The notes under the pieces were generated by a model. It saw only the letters and a program-made list of their open reading frames with translations, did not search any database and was not told the DNA's origin. 64,000 nucleotides of DNA. It comes from Phycisphaerae bacterium. Lineage in GTDB: Bacteria > Planctomycetota > Phycisphaerae > Phycisphaerales > UBA1924. Made by a program: the position numbers and the translations under genes. Shown in pieces: positions 25,622 through 33,098 of this stretch. Every line of letters begins with the position of its first letter. Within the stretch, counting starts at the first letter, position 1. Location: positions 684,001-748,000 of the forward strand of contig JAUIES010000002.1 of NCBI GenBank assembly GCA_030429705.1, given 5' to 3'.

Positions 25622-25707
25622 TGTGGGGTGGTGTCGTGACGTTTGCGATGGGTTGAACGAGAGCGTGTCGTCATGTCGATGTCACGACGCTCAAGGTGGA
25701 GCAGTGC

Positions 25708-26613
25708 ATGTCGCAATCGATGCCCGATCGAATTCGAGACCTGGTATCTGATATCGACGATCGCCGACGCGTGCAGTCGATGAGCGAAATTTCATCTGAT
25801 GGCGTGCAATGCGTGCTGAGCGTCATGCTCGACGATGGATGCCAGATGGTCGCCAAGTGTGTTGGTGAATCTGCGCATGACCGTTTGGTTGCAGAAGCCG
25901 ACGGGCTAGCTGCATTGGGGGCTGACGGAAAAATCGTTGTGCCACGCGTTTACACGCTTCGCACGATCACAGGCTGGTCTGTGCTTCTCATGGACGCAAT
26001 GCCGGCGATCGGTGGTGTGGGTTCGCCCGAAGATGCCTGGGCCGAGTTTGGGCGGCAACTGGCTCGGCATCATCAATCCAGTTGCGGCGGTCAATATGGG
26101 TGGTGGCGCGACAACTACATCGGAGCCACCGCGCAGATCAACAGTTGGTGCGACGATTGGGTGGCGTTCAACGCGGAACACCGGCTCGGGTTTCAGACTC
26201 GGCTGGCCCGAAGTCAAGGACTTCTTACGCGAGTTGAATCGGACCTCGTCGTTCGTGTGATTGATCGTCTCGACGAGTTTTTGCCGCGCCGGCCCCACCC
26301 TTCACTTCTGCATGGCGATTTGTGGTCGGGCAATGCACTATCAACGCAACGCGATGGCGGCGCTGTCGTCGCAGTGATTGACCCGGCGGTTTCAATCGGC
26401 GATGGCTGGGCTGACATTGCCATGATGAAACTCTTCGGCGGATTCCCTTTGGCCTGTTTCCGAGCCTACGCCGAGGTCGTCCGCGAGCCCGATGATCTCG
26501 ATCGACGGCTGCGCGTGTACCAACTCTATCACTTGCTCAATCATCTCAACCTGTTCGGGCGGGGCTACGCCGGCTCGGTCACATCGATCGTGCAAAGCCT
26601 GCTTTCATTGTGA
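25708..26613 (+). CDS. fructosamine kinase family protein
   Basis: This 301-residue kinase-like protein starts at ATG 25708 with GGAG 6 bases upstream; a GTG 12 bases earlier is less likely. It has the protein-kinase-like fold of fructosamine-3-kinases: MVAKCV carries the ATP-binding Lys (residue 50), LARHHQ and GWWRDNYIGATAQINSWCDDW are family stretches, and LLHGDLWSGN (about 201-209) is the catalytic loop, followed by VVAVIDPAVSIGDGWADIA with the metal-binding Asp. Such enzymes phosphorylate fructosamines or ribulosamines on glycated proteins or small molecules so that they fall off. It fits beside enzymes that release free glucose. Confidence 0.9.
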   Translation: MSQSMPDRIRDLVSDIDDRRRVQSMSEISSDGVQCVLSVMLDDGCQMVAKCVGESAHDRLVAEADGLAALGADGKIVVPRVYTLRTITGWSVLLMDAMPAIGGVGSPEDAWAEFGRQLARHHQSSCGGQYGWWRDNYIGATAQINSWCDDWVAFNAEHRLGFQTRLARSQGLLTRVESDLVVRVIDRLDEFLPRRPHPSLLHGDLWSGNALSTQRDGGAVVAVIDPAVSIGDGWADIAMMKLFGGFPLACFRAYAEVVREPDDLDRRLRVYQLYHLLNHLNLFGRGYAGSVTSIVQSLLSL

Positions 26614-26749: not shown

Positions 26750-27955
26750 ATGAGACGCCGCGCTGCTATTGTTGCTGCTGTTCGCACACCGATCGGTCGA
26801 TTTGGTGGTGCACTTGCAGCGGTCCGACCTGACGATCTTGCGGCCGTTGTGATCCGTTCGCTCGTCGAACGATCGGGCATCGAGTCTGCACTTATCGACG
26901 ATGTCTATTTCGGTGCTGCCAACCAGGCCGGGGAAGACAATCGTAATGTCGCGCGCATGGCGGCGCTTCTGGCAGGGCTACCGGCAAGTGTTCCGGGGGC
27001 GACGGTCAACCGGCTTTGTGCGTCCGGTTTGGAAGCGGTCAATATCGCAGCCCGGATGATCGAGTCCGATTGCGGTGATGTGATCATCGCGGGCGGCGTT
27101 GAGTCGATGAGCCGAGCGCCGTATGTCTTGAGCAAGGCCGACCGGGCGTTCGGACGCGACCAGGCAATATTCGACACTTCGATTGGCTGGCGGTTCGTGA
27201 ACCCGAAACTCGCTGCGCTGCATTATCCGTACGCGATGGGAGAGACCGCTGAGAATGTGGCGCGAGAGCACGGCGTTGATCGGCAAGCGCAGGACAATTT
27301 TGCCCTTCGCAGCCAACAGCGCTGGGCGGCAGCACACGCAGCCGGGCGATTCGCCGATGAGGTCGTGCCGGTCGAAGTACAACAGGGCCGAAATGGGTCG
27401 GTCTTCGTCGAGATCGATGAACACCCCCGCCCGGACACAACGCTCGAAAAACTTGCTCAACTCCGCCCGGCATTTGCGAAGGACGACCAAGGGACTGTGA
27501 CGGCTGGCAACTCGTCCGGGATCAATGACGGAGCGGCCGCCCTGCTATTGGTCGAAGCCGAACGGGCCGCGGCACTCGGGCTCAAACCGCTGGCGTTTGT
27601 CGGTCCGAGTGCGGCTGCGGGCGTTGACCCGGCCTACATGGGACTCGGACCGATCCCGGCGGTTCGGAAAGCGCTCAAACGGGCAGGGCTCTCGATCGGT
27701 GATGTTGGTCGATATGAAATTAACGAAGCGTTTGCCGCCCAGGCGGTGGCGTGTCAGCGCGAACTCGGTATTGACGATGAGAATCTGAATGTCAACGGTG
27801 GCGCGATCTCGATTGGTCACCCACTCGGGTGCAGCGGAGCGCGCCTCGCAGCAACGCTCGTCCATGAAATGGTGCGGACCGAGACCGATCGCGGTGTCGC
27901 ATCGTTGTGCGTCGGTGTCGGACAAGGGCTGGCAACAGTGTTCGCACGCGATTGA
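26750..27955 (+). CDS. thiolase, PcaF-like (3-oxoadipyl-CoA thiolase / acetyl-CoA acyltransferase)
   Basis: This 401-residue degradative-type thiolase has nucleophile C90 in NRLCASG, H357 in GHPLGCSG, and C387 in SLCVGVGQG. The stretches ANQAGEDNRNVARMAALLAG, FDTSIGWRFVNP and DEHPRPDTTLEKLA are characteristic of 3-oxoadipyl-CoA thiolases (PcaF/PaaJ type), although acetyl-CoA acetyltransferases share parts of them. It cleaves a 3-oxoacyl-CoA with CoA to acetyl-CoA and a shortened acyl-CoA. The gene is alone on its strand; the upstream site is weak. Its stop lies 18 bases from the convergent operon that encodes a 3-oxoacid CoA-transferase, so it is the natural next enzyme. The substrate preference is inference. 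Confidence 0.92.
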   Translation: MRRRAAIVAAVRTPIGRFGGALAAVRPDDLAAVVIRSLVERSGIESALIDDVYFGAANQAGEDNRNVARMAALLAGLPASVPGATVNRLCASGLEAVNIAARMIESDCGDVIIAGGVESMSRAPYVLSKADRAFGRDQAIFDTSIGWRFVNPKLAALHYPYAMGETAENVAREHGVDRQAQDNFALRSQQRWAAAHAAGRFADEVVPVEVQQGRNGSVFVEIDEHPRPDTTLEKLAQLRPAFAKDDQGTVTAGNSSGINDGAAALLLVEAERAAALGLKPLAFVGPSAAAGVDPAYMGLGPIPAVRKALKRAGLSIGDVGRYEINEAFAAQAVACQRELGIDDENLNVNGGAISIGHPLGCSGARLAATLVHEMVRTETDRGVASLCVGVGQGLATVFARD

Positions 27956-27973
27956 TGATGTCGCGGCTGGGGC

Positions 27974-29293
27974 TCACTCCATCGAAGCAATCTTTGCGAA
28001 ACCTGATTCCATGCCTGCAATGAGTTGGTCGATTTCAGACTCCGTCATCGGTGTCGAAAGCGCGGCTGTGCAGGTGTTGATCATGATAAAACCTTCATCG
28101 AACAGATGATCGAGTAACACTTTGAGTCGCCTGTTTTCAGCTTCACTGGCATACGCCTCGCGAAAGTTGCGAGGGTGATCGGGCTTCATGTGAACACGAA
28201 ACATCGACCCCCCTCCAGTGACGCAGGCTTTGGCCCCGGTCGACTCGATTGCTTCATTGATCCCATGCATAGCGCGAGATGTGAGCGCGTTTAGTCGTGC
28301 CACCGCTTGTTCGTCAAAGAGCTCCATTGCCGTAAGGCCTGCAGTCGTACTGATCGGGTTCGCTGAAAAGGTTCCCGAATGCGGGAAGAGATAATGGTCG
28401 CCGCGCGGGTTCATGACATCCATGACTTCGGTGCGGCCGGCCAGCACGCCGACGGGAAAACCGCCACCGATCATCTTACCAAGCGCTGTCAAATCCGGTG
28501 TGACACCGATATGGGTCTGCAAACCGCCGTAGGCCGATCGAAAAGTTATAACCTCGTCGAGCACGAGCAAAGCGCCGTGGCGTGTTGTCCAGTCGCGCAG
28601 AGCGTTCACAAATGCGGGGCTCGCAGGCGACAGTCCGACGCGGTGCGGCATGAGATCGATGAGTACACAAGCGAGATCGTCGGTGTGCTCGTCGAGAATT
28701 GCGAGCGATTTCTCTACATTGTTGAATGGAAGCACCACCACTTCGTCCAGCGCTGAGTGAGGGGTCCCATGAACGAGGGGAACGCTGCGAGGCCGGTCGA
28801 CATCGCCCCAGGTCTCGGGCACCGGGGCCTGACTGATCTCGGCATAGTCGTAACCGCCATGATAAGCGCCTTCAACCTTGGCCACCTTGGGTCTGCCGGT
28901 GAATGCGCGGGCCGCCTTGAGTGCAGCCATGAGCGCTTCTGTGCCGGAATTGACAAATCGAAGTTTCTCAAAGCCGGGGCACCGTGCACACAAATGCTCC
29001 GCATAGCTGACCTCAGTCTCGGTCGCCATCATGAAAGCGGTGCCTTTGGCGAGTTGCTCGCTGACGGCTTGCGTGATCGCAGGGTGCGCGTGCCCGTGAA
29101 TGAGTGAGCACATATTGTTCGAGAAGTCGATTCGCTCAACCCCCTCAATATCAATCACGCGACATCCTTCGCCACGATCGGCGTAGGCTGGATGCGGGGC
29201 GCGAAGGACGGTGTTGCGGCTCACGCCGCCCGGCATGACACGCTGGGCACGCTCAAAGAGATCAGCGCTGCGCGAAGTCACAGTATTTTTCAT
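27974..29293 (-). CDS. class III aminotransferase, GSA-aminomutase/beta-transaminase type
   Basis: This 439-residue PLP enzyme starts at ATG 29293 with AGGA 8 bases upstream. It opens with the GSA-aminomutase pattern RVMPGGVSRNTV. INNM-type FSNNMCSLIHGHAHP, FVNSGTEALMAALKAARAFTG, AYHGGYDYAE, DEV at 246-248 and LGKMIGGGFPVG with PLP Lys273 follow. Both glutamate-1-semialdehyde aminomutase (HemL) and the beta-amino-acid transaminases look like this; ICD-type HemL residues differ and the operon context (aminomutase, 3-oxoacid CoA-transferase) favours a beta-transaminase rather than heme synthesis. It is the last gene of the operon, 22 bases after the CoA-transferase B subunit. I assign the family with confidence, the substrate only tentatively. 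Confidence 0.88.
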   Translation of the reverse strand: MKNTVTSRSADLFERAQRVMPGGVSRNTVLRAPHPAYADRGEGCRVIDIEGVERIDFSNNMCSLIHGHAHPAITQAVSEQLAKGTAFMMATETEVSYAEHLCARCPGFEKLRFVNSGTEALMAALKAARAFTGRPKVAKVEGAYHGGYDYAEISQAPVPETWGDVDRPRSVPLVHGTPHSALDEVVVLPFNNVEKSLAILDEHTDDLACVLIDLMPHRVGLSPASPAFVNALRDWTTRHGALLVLDEVITFRSAYGGLQTHIGVTPDLTALGKMIGGGFPVGVLAGRTEVMDVMNPRGDHYLFPHSGTFSANPISTTAGLTAMELFDEQAVARLNALTSRAMHGINEAIESTGAKACVTGGGSMFRVHMKPDHPRNFREAYASEAENRRLKVLLDHLFDEGFIMINTCTAALSTPMTESEIDQLIAGMESGFAKIASME

Positions 29294-29315
29294 ATCAGCG
29301 TTCCTGGATTTTTCA

Positions 29316-29993
29316 TCAGGTCGAAAGTGTGGATTCCGGCGTTGGAAGCAATTGTGCACCCGTGCGATTCTGGACGAAATCTAAATCAATTCCAGGGTTC
29401 AGTTCGACAAGCCGAAAGCCCTCGGGTGTGACATCGATCACAGCAAGATCTGTATACACACGGTTGACAACTCGAGCACCCGTCAACGGATAGGTGCACG
29501 ATTCAACCAATTTGGGCTCACCTGTCTTTGTCGTGTGCTGGGTGATGACATAAATGGCTTTCACGCCTGCGACGAGATCCATCGCTCCCCCCACCGCGGG
29601 AATAGCATCGGGCTCACCGGTTGACCAGTTTGCCAGGTCGCCGTTCTGAGCAACTTGCAACGCTCCGAGCACGCACAGATCGAGGTGCCCGCCCCGGATC
29701 ATCGCGAAACTGTCTGACTGGTGGAAAAACGACGCGCCAGGATTGGCTGTGACATGTCGCTTACCCGCGTTGATCAGTTCGGGATCGCCATCGTCCGATT
29801 CCGGTGATGGGCCCATGCCGAGCAGTCCGTTTTCGGTGTGGTACACCAGTTCGCGGCCTTGCGGTACAAACCGGGCCACGAGTTCCGGGATACCGATGCC
29901 CAGGTTTACATACGAGCCGTCAGGAATATCTTGGGCAACGCGTCTTGCCATGTCTTCGCGTGTCCAGCCAACATTGGAAGGTGCGTCACTCAT
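29316..29993 (-). CDS. 3-oxoacid CoA-transferase subunit B
   Basis: This 225-residue protein is the catalytic subunit of a family I CoA-transferase. The active-site Glu is E54 in YHTENGLLGMGP; NLGIGIPELVA and GGAMDLVAGVKAIYVITQH, then CTYPLTG, are typical of ScoB/PcaJ/AtoA. The enzyme moves CoA from a donor such as succinyl-CoA to a 3-oxoacid (acetoacetate, 3-oxoadipate or similar) through a glutamyl-CoA intermediate. Its ATG overlaps the stop of subunit A by 4 bases (ATGA), so the two are translationally coupled as usual. Confidence 0.93.
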   Translation of the reverse strand: MSDAPSNVGWTREDMARRVAQDIPDGSYVNLGIGIPELVARFVPQGRELVYHTENGLLGMGPSPESDDGDPELINAGKRHVTANPGASFFHQSDSFAMIRGGHLDLCVLGALQVAQNGDLANWSTGEPDAIPAVGGAMDLVAGVKAIYVITQHTTKTGEPKLVESCTYPLTGARVVNRVYTDLAVIDVTPEGFRLVELNPGIDLDFVQNRTGAQLLPTPESTLST

Positions 29994-30700
29994 GGGTAGG
30001 TTGCTCCCGCTGCGATGAGCGCGGATTCGTGCGCCGGCGACATCACCGTCACGATGCGGTCGACGAAAATGCCAGGTGTCACGACCACTTCAGGATCGAT
30101 CGACCCTGGTTCAACGACCTGTTCGACCTGCACGATGGTTGTCTCACCGGCCATTGCCATGATCGGCGAAAAGTTCCGTGCGGTCTTGTTGAAAACAACA
30201 TTACCGTGGGAATCCGCCCGGCGTCCCTTGATGAGTGTCACATTGGCGCGCAGGCCGTACTCAAGCACATAGGATCGACCATCAAACTCACGGCACTCCT
30301 TGCCATCGCCGAGCGGTGTCCCGACTGCGGTCGGCGTATAGAACGCTGGAATCCCCGCCCCCCCCGCTCGAATGCGCTCGGCGAGTGTGCCCTGTGGTAC
30401 AAGTTCGAGAGCCGTTCGTCCGCTGCGATAGAGTTCCGGAAACACCGTCGAGTTGGCGGTGCGTGGGAATGAACAGATCACCTTGGATACGCGACCGGCT
30501 TTGAGAAGGGCCGCGAGCCCGACCTCGCCAGAACCGCAGTTATTGCTGATAATGGTCAGGTTGGTTGCACCGGTGTCGATGAGCGCATGGATGAGTTCGA
30601 TCGGGCTGCCGGCTTCACCGAACCCACCGACCATCACGGTCGAGCCGTCGCGGATATCCGCGAGCGCTTCTGCGGCGCTTTCGACCCGCTTGTCGATCAT
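29990..30700 (-). CDS. 3-oxoacid CoA-transferase subunit A
   Basis: This 236-residue protein contains DGSTVMVGGFGEAGSPIELI, the N-terminal signature of family I CoA-transferase A subunits. TIISNNCGSGEVGLAALL, GTLAERIRAGGAGIPAFYT and RRADSHGNVVFNKTARNF follow. ATG at 30700 overlaps the KamA stop as ATGA, and is preferred over the GTG two codons upstream. With subunit B it forms a complete 3-oxoacid CoA-transferase (ScoAB/PcaIJ type). The position directly between an aminomutase and an aminotransferase gene is what makes the operon unusual. Confidence 0.93.
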   Translation of the reverse strand: MIDKRVESAAEALADIRDGSTVMVGGFGEAGSPIELIHALIDTGATNLTIISNNCGSGEVGLAALLKAGRVSKVICSFPRTANSTVFPELYRSGRTALELVPQGTLAERIRAGGAGIPAFYTPTAVGTPLGDGKECREFDGRSYVLEYGLRANVTLIKGRRADSHGNVVFNKTARNFSPIMAMAGETTIVQVEQVVEPGSIDPEVVVTPGIFVDRIVTVMSPAHESALIAAGATYP

Positions 30701-32163
30701 CGACACATCCCGCCGGTTTGCGGCATTGAACTGATCCCTGCAGGCTTACCCGAACTGGTGACGCGGGTGTAATCAAACAGTCCCGCTTCGTCGAACAACA
30801 CACGGTCTTCGTAATCATCAAACCACAGGGCATCTGGGTTGCGACCCACGATGCACACCTTCGAGAGATGAGGAGCGTCCGCTGCATTGCGGAGCAGTTT
30901 GAAGATCACGACGCCATTCTCAGCACCCTTGAGACCCTTGATCGGCTCGTTGGTGACAGCGGCGACTTCAGTCTTGCCGCGATAGTGCGTGATCGACAAT
31001 CGCGCGTGTTTTTCAACGCCTGAAAGCCCCTTCTGCGAATTATTGAGAATGTTCCACGCTTTCTCGATCGGAATGTTGAATGCCTTGTATGCGACGATGT
31101 CGCGGCCACAGAAGAAATAGTGGTTCTCACCACCGATCCGCTTGAACTCACGCTGCAAAATGCGCAGTGCGTCCGAATCGTCATTGATGCCGCGAATGAT
31201 GGGTGCCTGATTCTGCACCGTCAGCCAACCTCTGTTGACGAGGCCGCGCATCGCGGCTCCGGTTTCGGGAACCCACTGCAGGAACCCCTGCTCATTGCGA
31301 ATGTATTCGCCGTTGTCATCTTTGGCGAGGAACTCGTCGGGGTGCTCGAAGTGGAGCATCATGTTGAGCCCGACCTCGGGGTATGCCTCATGGAATCGAT
31401 CGAGCATTTCGAGGAAGGTGCGATCGAACCTTTGCGGATAGAACGCCATTTCCTTGGTTCCAATTCGGATTGTTTCGATGCCCGATTCAGCGAGCGCTGC
31501 AAGCCACGCGGCGATCTTGCCGTTGTTGAGCACCATCGGATCGCCGCCGGAGAGCAGAATCTCGCGGAGTTTTTCTCGACCTGATTCTGGGTGCAAGCCG
31601 CCGTTGCGTTCGACCGCTTCGTTGTGTTCGCGAATGTATTGTGTGATCTCCGGGATCTTGGCGAGGTCTTTCTTTTTGACCGTCCCGTCCTGCCGCTCGA
31701 TCTCTTTCCGTGCGATCAGTTCCTCGCGGTAACAGAATCGGCAGTGAGCCGAGCAGGTTGAGACGACATACATCAAGCCCATCTCGTACTTGTGCAGCAA
31801 CCCTTCGACCGGGCTGTAGTCCATCTGGTTACCCGGGTCTTCCGAACCTTCGAGGTTTTCTGTTTCATCCGGACTTGCTTTGACCAGACGCTGGATGGAG
31901 GGGCTGTTTTTAGCGAGGTTGTAGTAGTGTCGCGTGATCTTCACGGGCATGCGCGACTCGACATCGCGATCGGTGCCCTTGAGTTGGCGGAGGCTGACGA
32001 CCTCGTCCTTGGTGTAGAAACTGAGCATGTCCTCCGGCGCCTTTTCGTTGATGAATGGCGCCAGCCCATTGATGATTTCTCGCTGATACTTGGACTCTTC
32101 AACCTTTTCGAGGAAGACCCGCTCGCGGTCGGTCTGGGCATACTCGTGCTGTTTCTGGATCAT
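30697..32163 (-). CDS. KamA-family radical SAM aminomutase
   Basis: This 488-residue protein starts at ATG 32163 with GGAG 6 bases upstream; the frame is open to 32253. The radical SAM cluster motif CSAHCRFC has Cys at 137, 141 and 144. LLSGGDPMVLNN, RIGTKEMAFYPQRF, LTVQNQAPIIRGIND and GKTEV with the presumed PLP Lys397 follow, as in lysine 2,3-aminomutase. It is longer than classical KamA (about 416 residues), with a 110-residue N-terminal part and an acidic insert in the middle. In a by-eye alignment the two aspartates that bind the lysine side chain become R354 and H393, so the substrate may not be lysine. KamA enzymes swap the alpha-amino group to the beta carbon using PLP and a 4Fe-4S/SAM radical. 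It heads a four-gene operon. Confidence 0.88.
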   Translation of the reverse strand: MIQKQHEYAQTDRERVFLEKVEESKYQREIINGLAPFINEKAPEDMLSFYTKDEVVSLRQLKGTDRDVESRMPVKITRHYYNLAKNSPSIQRLVKASPDETENLEGSEDPGNQMDYSPVEGLLHKYEMGLMYVVSTCSAHCRFCYREELIARKEIERQDGTVKKKDLAKIPEITQYIREHNEAVERNGGLHPESGREKLREILLSGGDPMVLNNGKIAAWLAALAESGIETIRIGTKEMAFYPQRFDRTFLEMLDRFHEAYPEVGLNMMLHFEHPDEFLAKDDNGEYIRNEQGFLQWVPETGAAMRGLVNRGWLTVQNQAPIIRGINDDSDALRILQREFKRIGGENHYFFCGRDIVAYKAFNIPIEKAWNILNNSQKGLSGVEKHARLSITHYRGKTEVAAVTNEPIKGLKGAENGVVIFKLLRNAADAPHLSKVCIVGRNPDALWFDDYEDRVLFDEAGLFDYTRVTSSGKPAGISSMPQTGGMCR

Positions 32164-32213
32164 GACGCACTCCGGTGATTGATTTCGGTTTGGCTGGTTC
32201 GGGCTTGAAACAG

Positions 32214-32241
32214 ATTGTACAATGCCAGACGACGATTGCAA
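32214..32241 (-). promoter_or_regulatory. promoter of the aminomutase operon
   Basis: On the minus strand TTGCAA (32241-32236) and TACAAT (32219-32214) are 16 bases apart. The -10 is part of the perfect palindrome ATTGTACAAT (32214-32223), which also gives a TACAAT reading toward the divergent RpiR gene. The region between the two starts is only 104 bases. Confidence 0.55.
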
Positions 32242-32267
32242 CAAATTGACCACTTCGAGGCCATCAA

Positions 32268-33098
32268 ATGTCAGTTGAGGATCTCATCGCCGATGTCGGA
32301 GACCGACTGACCCCGACCGAGCGCAGAATTGCCGAAACAGTGTCAGGAGATCCGACTCTGCTGGCGTTCGGGACCGTTTCGGACCTTGCCGAGCGCGCCA
32401 GGACGAGTCGACCCTCGATCGTCCGGTTTGCGACCAAACTCGGATTCTCGGGCTATGCCGAGTTGCAAGGCTGGGTCCGCGATGGGGTTTCGCGCAGACT
32501 CTCACGCCCCAGCGAACGCATTCGCAGACGCTCAGACGCAGATGAAAATGTCAGGCCGGATATCGAAGCCGCCGTGCAACATGTCTTTGAAGCGCTCGAC
32601 ACCCAGCGGTTGCCCGCGATGGCAGCTCCGTTGGTCAGCGCTCGTCGAGTGTGGGTGCTTTCCGGCGAGACATCCACGGGCGGGGCCCGAGTATTGCAAA
32701 GCGGGCTTTCGATGATTCGGCCAGATGTCCTGCTGGTTCATGATCAATCCGTGGGACGCGACCTGAGTGGCGCTGCCCCCGGCGACGCTGCGGTCGTTTT
32801 TGACTTTGCCCGGTACCGTCGCAGTTGTGTGACCGCGGCTCGAACACTTGCTGACCTAGGTGTCACGATCATCGCGATCACCGATGGACCGTTGTCCCCG
32901 CTTGCGTCGTTGACCAAACTCTGGTGTGAACTTCGCATCCCTGCGGTCGGGCCGTTTGACAGTTCTGTCCCCGCGGTCATCGCAGCCGAGTTACTCATCG
33001 CACAGGTCGTCAGCGACCTCGGCGACAGCGCTCGCGATCGCATCGATCAACTCGAGACACTGTGGCAAGCCACCGGGACATTCTTTAACGACGATTGA
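32268..33098 (+). CDS. MurR/RpiR family transcriptional regulator
   Basis: This 276-residue regulator starts at ATG with GAGG 7 bases upstream. Residues 1-75 form the HTH_6 domain (LTPTERRIAETVSGDP, SDLAERARTSRPSIVRFATKLGFSGYAEL). Residues 110-255 form a SIS domain (RRVWVLSGETSTGGARVLQ, GDAAVVFDFARYRR, VTIIAITDGPLSPLA). Family members usually sense phosphosugars through the SIS domain. It is divergent from the aminomutase operon across a 104-base region, the usual arrangement for a local regulator, so it probably controls that operon; the ligand may not be a sugar. DS replaces the typical SGxS phosphosugar loop, which is worth noting. Confidence 0.88.
   Translation: MSVEDLIADVGDRLTPTERRIAETVSGDPTLLAFGTVSDLAERARTSRPSIVRFATKLGFSGYAELQGWVRDGVSRRLSRPSERIRRRSDADENVRPDIEAAVQHVFEALDTQRLPAMAAPLVSARRVWVLSGETSTGGARVLQSGLSMIRPDVLLVHDQSVGRDLSGAAPGDAAVVFDFARYRRSCVTAARTLADLGVTIIAITDGPLSPLASLTKLWCELRIPAVGPFDSSVPAVIAAELLIAQVVSDLGDSARDRIDQLETLWQATGTFFNDD

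Follow-up and report, generated by a model that had tools for sequence, protein, structure and literature searches.

A conserved planctomycete gene unit that may degrade 2-aminoadipate to succinyl-CoA and acetyl-CoA by way of 3-oxoadipate

The DNA considered here is a window of 64,000 nucleotides from a Phycisphaerae bacterium (GenBank assembly GCA_030429705.1, contig JAUIES010000002.1, positions 684,001 to 748,000 of the forward strand), the term window meaning this whole stretch. Between positions 26750 and 32163 it holds a minus-strand run of four genes, with a thiolase gene converging on them. The run opens with a radical S-adenosylmethionine (SAM), pyridoxal phosphate (PLP)-type 2,3-aminomutase of the KamA family (KAM; 488 amino acids, 30697-32163, minus strand), for which the function of 2-aminoadipate 2,3-aminomutase is proposed. 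Subunit A of a 3-oxoacid CoA-transferase follows (CTA; minus strand, 29990 to an ATG at 30700 or possibly a GTG at 30706; 342.7 bits on TIGR02429), then subunit B (CTB; 29316-29993, minus strand; 294.8 bits on TIGR02428) and a class III PLP aminotransferase of the glutamate-1-semialdehyde aminomutase/beta-transaminase type (AT; 27974-29293, minus strand), a proposed 3-aminoadipate transaminase. The convergent gene encodes a PcaF-type 3-oxoadipyl-CoA thiolase (THL; 26750-27955, plus strand), and its 3' end lies 18 bases from that of AT. ATGA overlaps join KAM to CTA, where the ATG at 30700 falls within the overlap, and CTA to CTB, while 22 bases separate CTB from AT. The start of AT is likely the ATG at 29293 rather than a GTG at 29359, because the longer frame from the GTG runs into the upstream gene. 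The original prediction, made from the sequence alone, had given these coordinates and tight junctions, which prove right on direct reading, and the gene identities that it proposed (a KamA-family aminomutase, both CoA-transferase subunits, a class III aminotransferase and a PcaF-like convergent thiolase) are borne out as well.

How far is this arrangement kept in other genomes? For the scan of genome contigs the best 80 of 216 relatives were taken (KAM 71-84% identical), so that the linkage counts describe the closer relatives. CTA lies directly downstream of KAM in all 80 loci. Where the locus leaves room, CTB comes next in 71 of 72 and AT in 65 of 66; the thiolase converges on the run in 51 of 62 loci, and 45 of 68 have a divergent gene for an RpiR-family regulator beside KAM. 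Locus L095 is the lone exception to the order of CTB and AT, both of which are present there, displaced by an insert of about 3.3 kb after CTA. Counted anywhere in the locus, truncated contigs included, CTB occurs in 78, AT in 72, THL in 56 and the RpiR gene in 47 of the 80. The conservation of gene order that the original prediction had proposed to look for in other genomes is therefore found, and KAM-CTA-CTB-AT with its convergent thiolase is a conserved unit, often accompanied by a divergent RpiR regulator and linked beyond chance. Beyond these six families the largest recur in 14 and 11 of the 80 loci and the others in at most 7, most flanking frames being without annotation.

The unit is found linked across the Planctomycetota and in loci labelled Verrucomicrobiota; some labels of metagenome-assembled genomes (Alphaproteobacteria, Acidobacteria, Chitinophaga) may be wrong. 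Within a sample of 294 planctomycete genomes, 78 match KAM at E 1e-10, of which 10, the window's own genome included, carry full-length orthologues (at least 67% identity), and the remaining matches are at most 38% identical. An orthologue is present in two of seven sampled genomes of the window's family, and full-length orthologues occur in 2 of 387 genomes from the phylum of locus L048 (labelled Spartobacteria, the label from which the phylum of genome G297 was taken). AT orthologues follow KAM closely, occurring in 10/10 genomes with KAM versus 0/5 genomes of the window's family without it. In the CTA tree described below, the verrucomicrobial rows (L048, L067 and L095) are nested within the planctomycete group, which suggests lateral transfer of the unit.

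This distribution bears on the direction of the route. The reactions are reversible in principle, and the genes might run biosynthetically, making 3-aminoadipate or 2-aminoadipate from succinyl-CoA and acetyl-CoA. The cluster is accessory (2/7 family genomes, 10/294 in the phylum sample), unlike essential biosynthesis, and the degradative direction of the thiolase is the favourable one in the cited part of the PcaF literature (PMC7337054), so that a biosynthetic role appears highly improbable.

KAM is a clear but distant relative of KamA that lies outside the named subfamilies. It scores 97.5 bits on TIGR00238, short of the cut-off of 199.2, and 75.7-94.7 bits on the models for lysine, glutamate, EpmB and arginine aminomutases. 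Its AlphaFold model (mean pLDDT, the predicted local confidence score, 63; used for the fold only) matches lysine 2,3-aminomutase (LAM) structure 2a5h with Z 18.2 and a root-mean-square deviation (rmsd) of 3.6 over 259 aligned residues, the next match reaching Z 8.5 (VIA list); Foldseek gives a loose superposition (TM 0.42, rmsd 7.8). The Fe-S motif CxxxCxxC (C137, C141, C144) and the column of the PLP lysine (K397) are invariant in the KAM rows, and Arg146, directly after the third cysteine, is kept and aligns with the LAM-type planctomycete proteins L032 and L033. These and the AT residue counts include the window row and a row from Mesorhizobium; rows outside the length limits were excluded, as was, for KAM, the divergent homologue L156. 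The substrate pocket differs from LAM. Asp293 and Asp330 of LAM hold the side-chain amine of lysine, and both columns carry Asp in L032 and L033; in KAM they are Arg354 and Ser390, each in 91 of 91 rows. Arg354 would be expected to disfavour the side chain of lysine by repulsion and to bind a carboxylate instead. An Arg in the Asp293 column is also seen in a further set of KamA-like proteins (L015-L031), carried by many planctomycetes.

A lysine route would run through beta-lysine, 3-oxo-6-aminohexanoate and its CoA ester to 4-aminobutyryl-CoA and acetyl-CoA, or through an acetylated version of these steps such as has reportedly been proposed for the kamA-yod operon of Bacillus subtilis; the fold of KAM is that of KamA, and the types of reaction would come in the same order. 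On a Rhodobacteraceae plasmid (CP081101.1, 178975-184143; loci L169 and L172), genes for an aminotransferase, CoA-transferase subunits A and B, an ArgE/DapE deacylase and a thiolase stand behind an amino acid ABC transporter; this group looks like a yodTSRQ-type route and counts on the side of lysine. Against lysine stand the Arg that replaces Asp293 throughout the KAM rows, the lack of a deacylase in the planctomycete operon, the cyclisation to which unprotected intermediates of the lysine route are prone, and the absence of the beta-lysine acetyltransferase AblB (TIGR03827) from all 16 KAM-bearing genomes searched, where 5 of 14 control genomes matched, three of them over the cut-off. A lysine route is accordingly considered very unlikely. 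The same AblB result speaks against an acetylated beta-lysine osmolyte, an outcome that the original prediction had allowed for and that is rejected here. Classical lysine fermentation is disfavoured less firmly than the osmolyte or the HemL reading discussed below: of the enzymes KamDE, Kdd, Kce and Kal, called absent in the original prediction, the search covered only KamD (PF09043), which had no match in 23 genomes and none in any control genome.

Among solved structures AT is closest to 6k8h (412 bits), a Sphaerobacter omega-transaminase that is active on beta-amino acids and whose R36 is suggested, in the section of the source cited, to bind the carboxylate (PMC10589169). The equivalent residue, R48, is invariant in 66/66 rows, as are R240 and K295 (P0002 numbering; R26, R218 and K273 counted from the ATG). 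The R240 column holds Glu in the GABA (4-aminobutyrate)-transaminase-like protein of the same genome, which with 489.8 bits stays below the TIGR00700 cut-off of 506.65; the corresponding Glu of GABA transaminase points towards the substrate. The second invariant Arg of AT would thus suit a second carboxylate, as in a dicarboxylic beta-amino acid.

Could AT simply be the organism's HemL, the glutamate-1-semialdehyde aminomutase, with its neighbours there by coincidence? The two HemL models give it 332.1 and 337.5 bits, where 527.3 and 398 would be required. None of seven family genomes (the window's genome, G000, and six others) yielded a glutamyl-tRNA reductase, with 10 of 14 control genomes matched, and six of eight other KAM-bearing genomes encode the reductase no more than about 5 kb from a class III aminotransferase distinct from AT. 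Together with the conserved linkage to KAM, these results contradict the idea that AT is the only HemL, which the original prediction had named as a possible refutation, and leave it a negligible probability. A different class III aminotransferase gene, at L130:4203-8508, adjoins one for an arginine N-succinyltransferase-like protein (under model cut-offs) and a long frame resembling aldehyde dehydrogenase, a group that resembles an arginine succinyltransferase operon.

The CoA-transferase and the thiolase carry features of 3-oxoadipate enzymes. A second CoA-transferase pair, similar to succinyl-CoA:3-oxoacid CoA-transferase (SCOT), is encoded elsewhere in the genome. CTA shares 47% identity with the A subunit of that pair and 42% with AtoD; CTB, compared by identity only, is 50% identical to the SCOT-like B subunit and 42% to the other B subunit compared. 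Among plasmid relatives (a spread of 40 of 640 records, with the neighbourhoods of 10 matches examined), two whose genes adjoin pcaF share 59.7% and 62.7% identity with CTA. In a maximum-likelihood tree of 29 rows CTA falls into a clade (support 100/98) with four of five pca-linked PcaI proteins and a 63.4% identical relative, apart from the SCOT-like, AtoD and yod-type rows. This position of CTA, among pca-linked PcaI proteins and away from SCOT and AtoD, is the one to be expected of a PcaIJ-type enzyme.

For THL, the best of 39 models is the PcaF model TIGR02430 (550.9 bits), and identity is 55% to PaaJ of Escherichia coli, 48% to AtoB and 49% to FadA. Its covering loop, DTSIGWRF, keeps I145, G146, W147 and R148 in 56/56 rows and T143 in 53/56, and these residues match E. 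coli PaaJ, not AtoB or FadA. According to the part of the PcaF study cited, covering-loop residues line the acyl tunnel and contact the acyl tail (PMC7337054).

An independent cluster is found on a plasmid of Mesorhizobium sp. 113-3-3 (NZ_AP023244.1), where a KAM (66% identity, annotated as a hypothetical protein) is followed by the ferredoxin FdxA, an AT (62%) and a glutaconate-type CoA-transferase. Operons of Chelatococcus and Methylocella that contain pcaC, pcaH, pcaG and pcaF encode proteins matching the alpha subunit of the latter at 83% and 77% identity, and a Sinorhizobium meliloti protein whose gene precedes that of a PcaF-like thiolase matches it at 69%. Because this alpha subunit resembles pca-operon proteins, the same KAM and AT appear here paired with an unrelated CoA-transferase of the 3-oxoadipate kind.

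These comparisons bear on possible rival substrates, foremost among them glutamate. If KAM were a glutamate 2,3-aminomutase, glutamate would give 3-aminoglutarate and 3-oxoglutarate, the latter being activated or decarboxylated to acetoacetate, and acetoacetyl-CoA would then yield two acetyl-CoA. Arg354 suits any acidic side chain, and a glutamate 2,3-aminomutase that lacks both LAM Asp residues is said to exist in Clostridioides difficile. However, CTA and THL resemble enzymes of 3-oxoadipate rather than of acetoacetate, a SCOT-like pair is encoded separately in the genome, a CoA-transferase of Pca type accompanies the variant in Mesorhizobium, and KAM reaches 80.3 bits on the glutamate 2,3-aminomutase model TIGR04368, far below its cut-off of 650. 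Glutamate is therefore regarded as an unlikely substrate. Another alpha-amino acid, such as leucine, ornithine, arginine or an aromatic one, might be converted instead if the CoA-transferase and thiolase were broad in range. A beta-leucine route has reportedly once been proposed. Transaminases of the 6k8h type and thiolases of the PcaF type do take several substrates, as the cited parts of the sources describe (PMC10589169, PMC7337054), but a dicarboxylate is the better fit to the conserved Arg residues of both KAM and AT and to a CoA-transferase of the PcaI clade, and one of these other amino acids seems quite unlikely as the substrate.

Arg354 of KAM, the invariant Arg of AT, the PcaI clade of CTA, the PcaF loop of THL and the Mesorhizobium pairing converge on a six-carbon dicarboxylate. 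An acidic amino acid is thus the very probable substrate, and 2-aminoadipate, which arises in lysine breakdown, the likeliest one. On this proposal KAM, with SAM, its Fe-S cluster and PLP, would shift the amino group from C2 to C3 and so turn L-2-aminoadipate into 3-aminoadipate, which AT would transaminate to 3-oxoadipate. CTA and CTB would place CoA onto 3-oxoadipate, presumably from succinyl-CoA, and the resulting 3-oxoadipyl-CoA would be cleaved by THL to succinyl-CoA and acetyl-CoA. That the unit is a catabolic operon degrading 2-aminoadipate to these two products via 3-oxoadipate is judged probable, at roughly 0.6. The original prediction had named 2-aminoadipate only conditionally; all four enzyme steps and the alphaproteobacterial cluster now lend it support at the level of sequence. 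The data show the genes and their linkage, the families to which they belong, the conserved residues and the place of CTA in the tree, and from these we infer the substrate, the direction, the order of steps, the part played by the regulator and lysine as the starting point.

Several observations weigh against degradation of 2-aminoadipate. KAM stays under the cut-off of every NCBIfam aminomutase model and is too divergent for any of them to name. The active-site part of its structural model is poor (pLDDT below 50 over residues 350-398), so that the role given to Arg354 is drawn from sequence alignment. Since Arg also occupies the Asp293 column in the lone homologue L156 and in the further KamA-like set of the phylum (L015-L031), Arg354 is consistent with an acidic substrate and not diagnostic of 2-aminoadipate. 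L156 itself (G404:C1:5795514-5796848; 48% identity) has no AT, CoA-transferase or thiolase in the surrounding 20 kb. No pcaF stands among the genes listed around the closest listed plasmid relative of CTA (Tistrella, 63.4%), the fifth pca-linked CoA-transferase of the tree groups with SCOT-like proteins, and THL, at 550.9 bits, misses the TIGR02430 cut-off of 597. In Mesorhizobium the CoA-transferase alpha gene (L138:19227-20049) is split over two frames with no listed coding sequence, being either pseudogenised or misassembled, and a search of 33 kb revealed no thiolase.

Where the 2-aminoadipate would come from is a further point at which the evidence is mixed. Lysine is its likely origin. 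A lysine dehydrogenase-like protein has as its best PDB match 3abi (187 bits), which we take to be a lysine dehydrogenase. The same list of adverse points continues here: this protein exceeds 300 bits in only 13 of 30 KAM-bearing genomes, PF16653 occurs in 5/10 genomes with KAM versus 5/13 without, no such gene was found beside the operon in the loci examined bar a 23% match in L110, and no lysine-to-aminoadipate marker recurs beside the operon, where most flanking frames lack annotation. Saccharopine or lysine dehydrogenase gave no lead as a linked source of 2-aminoadipate, being present in some KAM-bearing genomes, uncorrelated with KAM and, apart from the L110 match, not beside the operon. 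Intradiol dioxygenase (PF00775), considered as another source of 3-oxoadipate, gave no lead either; its matches, found in 8 of 18 KAM-bearing genomes, are weak and partial, none above 52 bits.

Divergent from KAM lies the gene for an RpiR-family regulator (32268-33098, plus strand; HTH_6 and SIS domains), which did not figure in the original prediction and which presumably controls the operon. The 104 bases between the two genes (32164-32267) contain a promoter-like TTGCAA-N16-TACAAT ahead of KAM. Across the RpiR-KAM intergenic regions of the window and 47 other loci, an arrangement TGTTGCA..TGTACA..GTTTCA recurs. The sequence AGTGTACA is present, on either strand, in 21 of these 48 regions, many of them from close relatives, and ATTGTACA in 15 of 48; in a control of 50 shuffles the commonest 8-mer reached a count of 5. 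The arrangement is possibly an RpiR operator that overlaps the promoter.

Among the neighbours, a gene of the fructosamine kinase family (PF03881) lies at 25696-26613, just before THL, with a relative only in L066 among 91 loci. Enzymes of this family can free lysine from glycated lysine. Members of the acyl-CoA dehydrogenase family occur near three loci, and the one at L084 reached no equivalog cut-off.

How does the unit compare with known systems? KAM shares with lysine, glutamate and arginine 2,3-aminomutases the fold (2a5h), the Fe-S motif and the PLP-lysine column, and differs in lying under every curated cut-off and in the Arg of the Asp293 column. The kamA-yodP-Q-R-S-T operon of B. subtilis reportedly includes an acetyltransferase, YodP, and a deacylase, YodQ, its aminotransferase and CoA-transferase being uncharacterised. 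KamA is a lysine 2,3-aminomutase there, whereas the planctomycete operon has no counterpart of YodP or YodQ. The likeness lies in an aminomutase, a class III aminotransferase and a 3-oxoacid CoA-transferase encoded together (KamA and YodT: PMC6522883), and the physiological function of B. subtilis KamA remains to be determined according to the cited part of that source (PMC6522883). The lysine fermentation variant of Candidatus Cloacamonas (KamA, KamDE, Kdd, Kce, Kat, AtoDA and thiolase), as outlined in the section cited, likewise combines a KamA-family enzyme, a HemL-like beta-transaminase, a CoA-transferase and a thiolase (PMC3149608), but Kat there acts on 3-aminobutyryl-CoA and KAM here lacks the lysine-binding Asp. 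With the lower beta-ketoadipate pathway (PcaIJ, PcaF) the unit shares the CTA clade and the THL motif, although the input here apparently comes from an aminomutase and a transaminase and not from ring cleavage.

Since the reaction logic reportedly has a precedent in B. subtilis kamA-yod, any novelty would lie in the substrate and the enzyme clade, not in the type of route. Known pathways degrade 2-aminoadipate through 2-oxoadipate and glutaryl-CoA. On balance we lean towards an undescribed route that bypasses both, in which a 2-aminoadipate 2,3-aminomutase, a new KamA specificity, and a 3-aminoadipate transaminase would feed lysine-derived 2-aminoadipate into the end of the beta-ketoadipate pathway, and which would have spread between Planctomycetota, Verrucomicrobiota and Alphaproteobacteria, with an unrelated CoA-transferase in Mesorhizobium. 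No description of such a route was found in the literature searched, which lacked most subscription journals. If the proposal is true, a radical-SAM route would be added for 2-aminoadipate, a function would be found for a KamA clade without a name in any curated model, and lysine breakdown would be joined to the beta-ketoadipate pathway.

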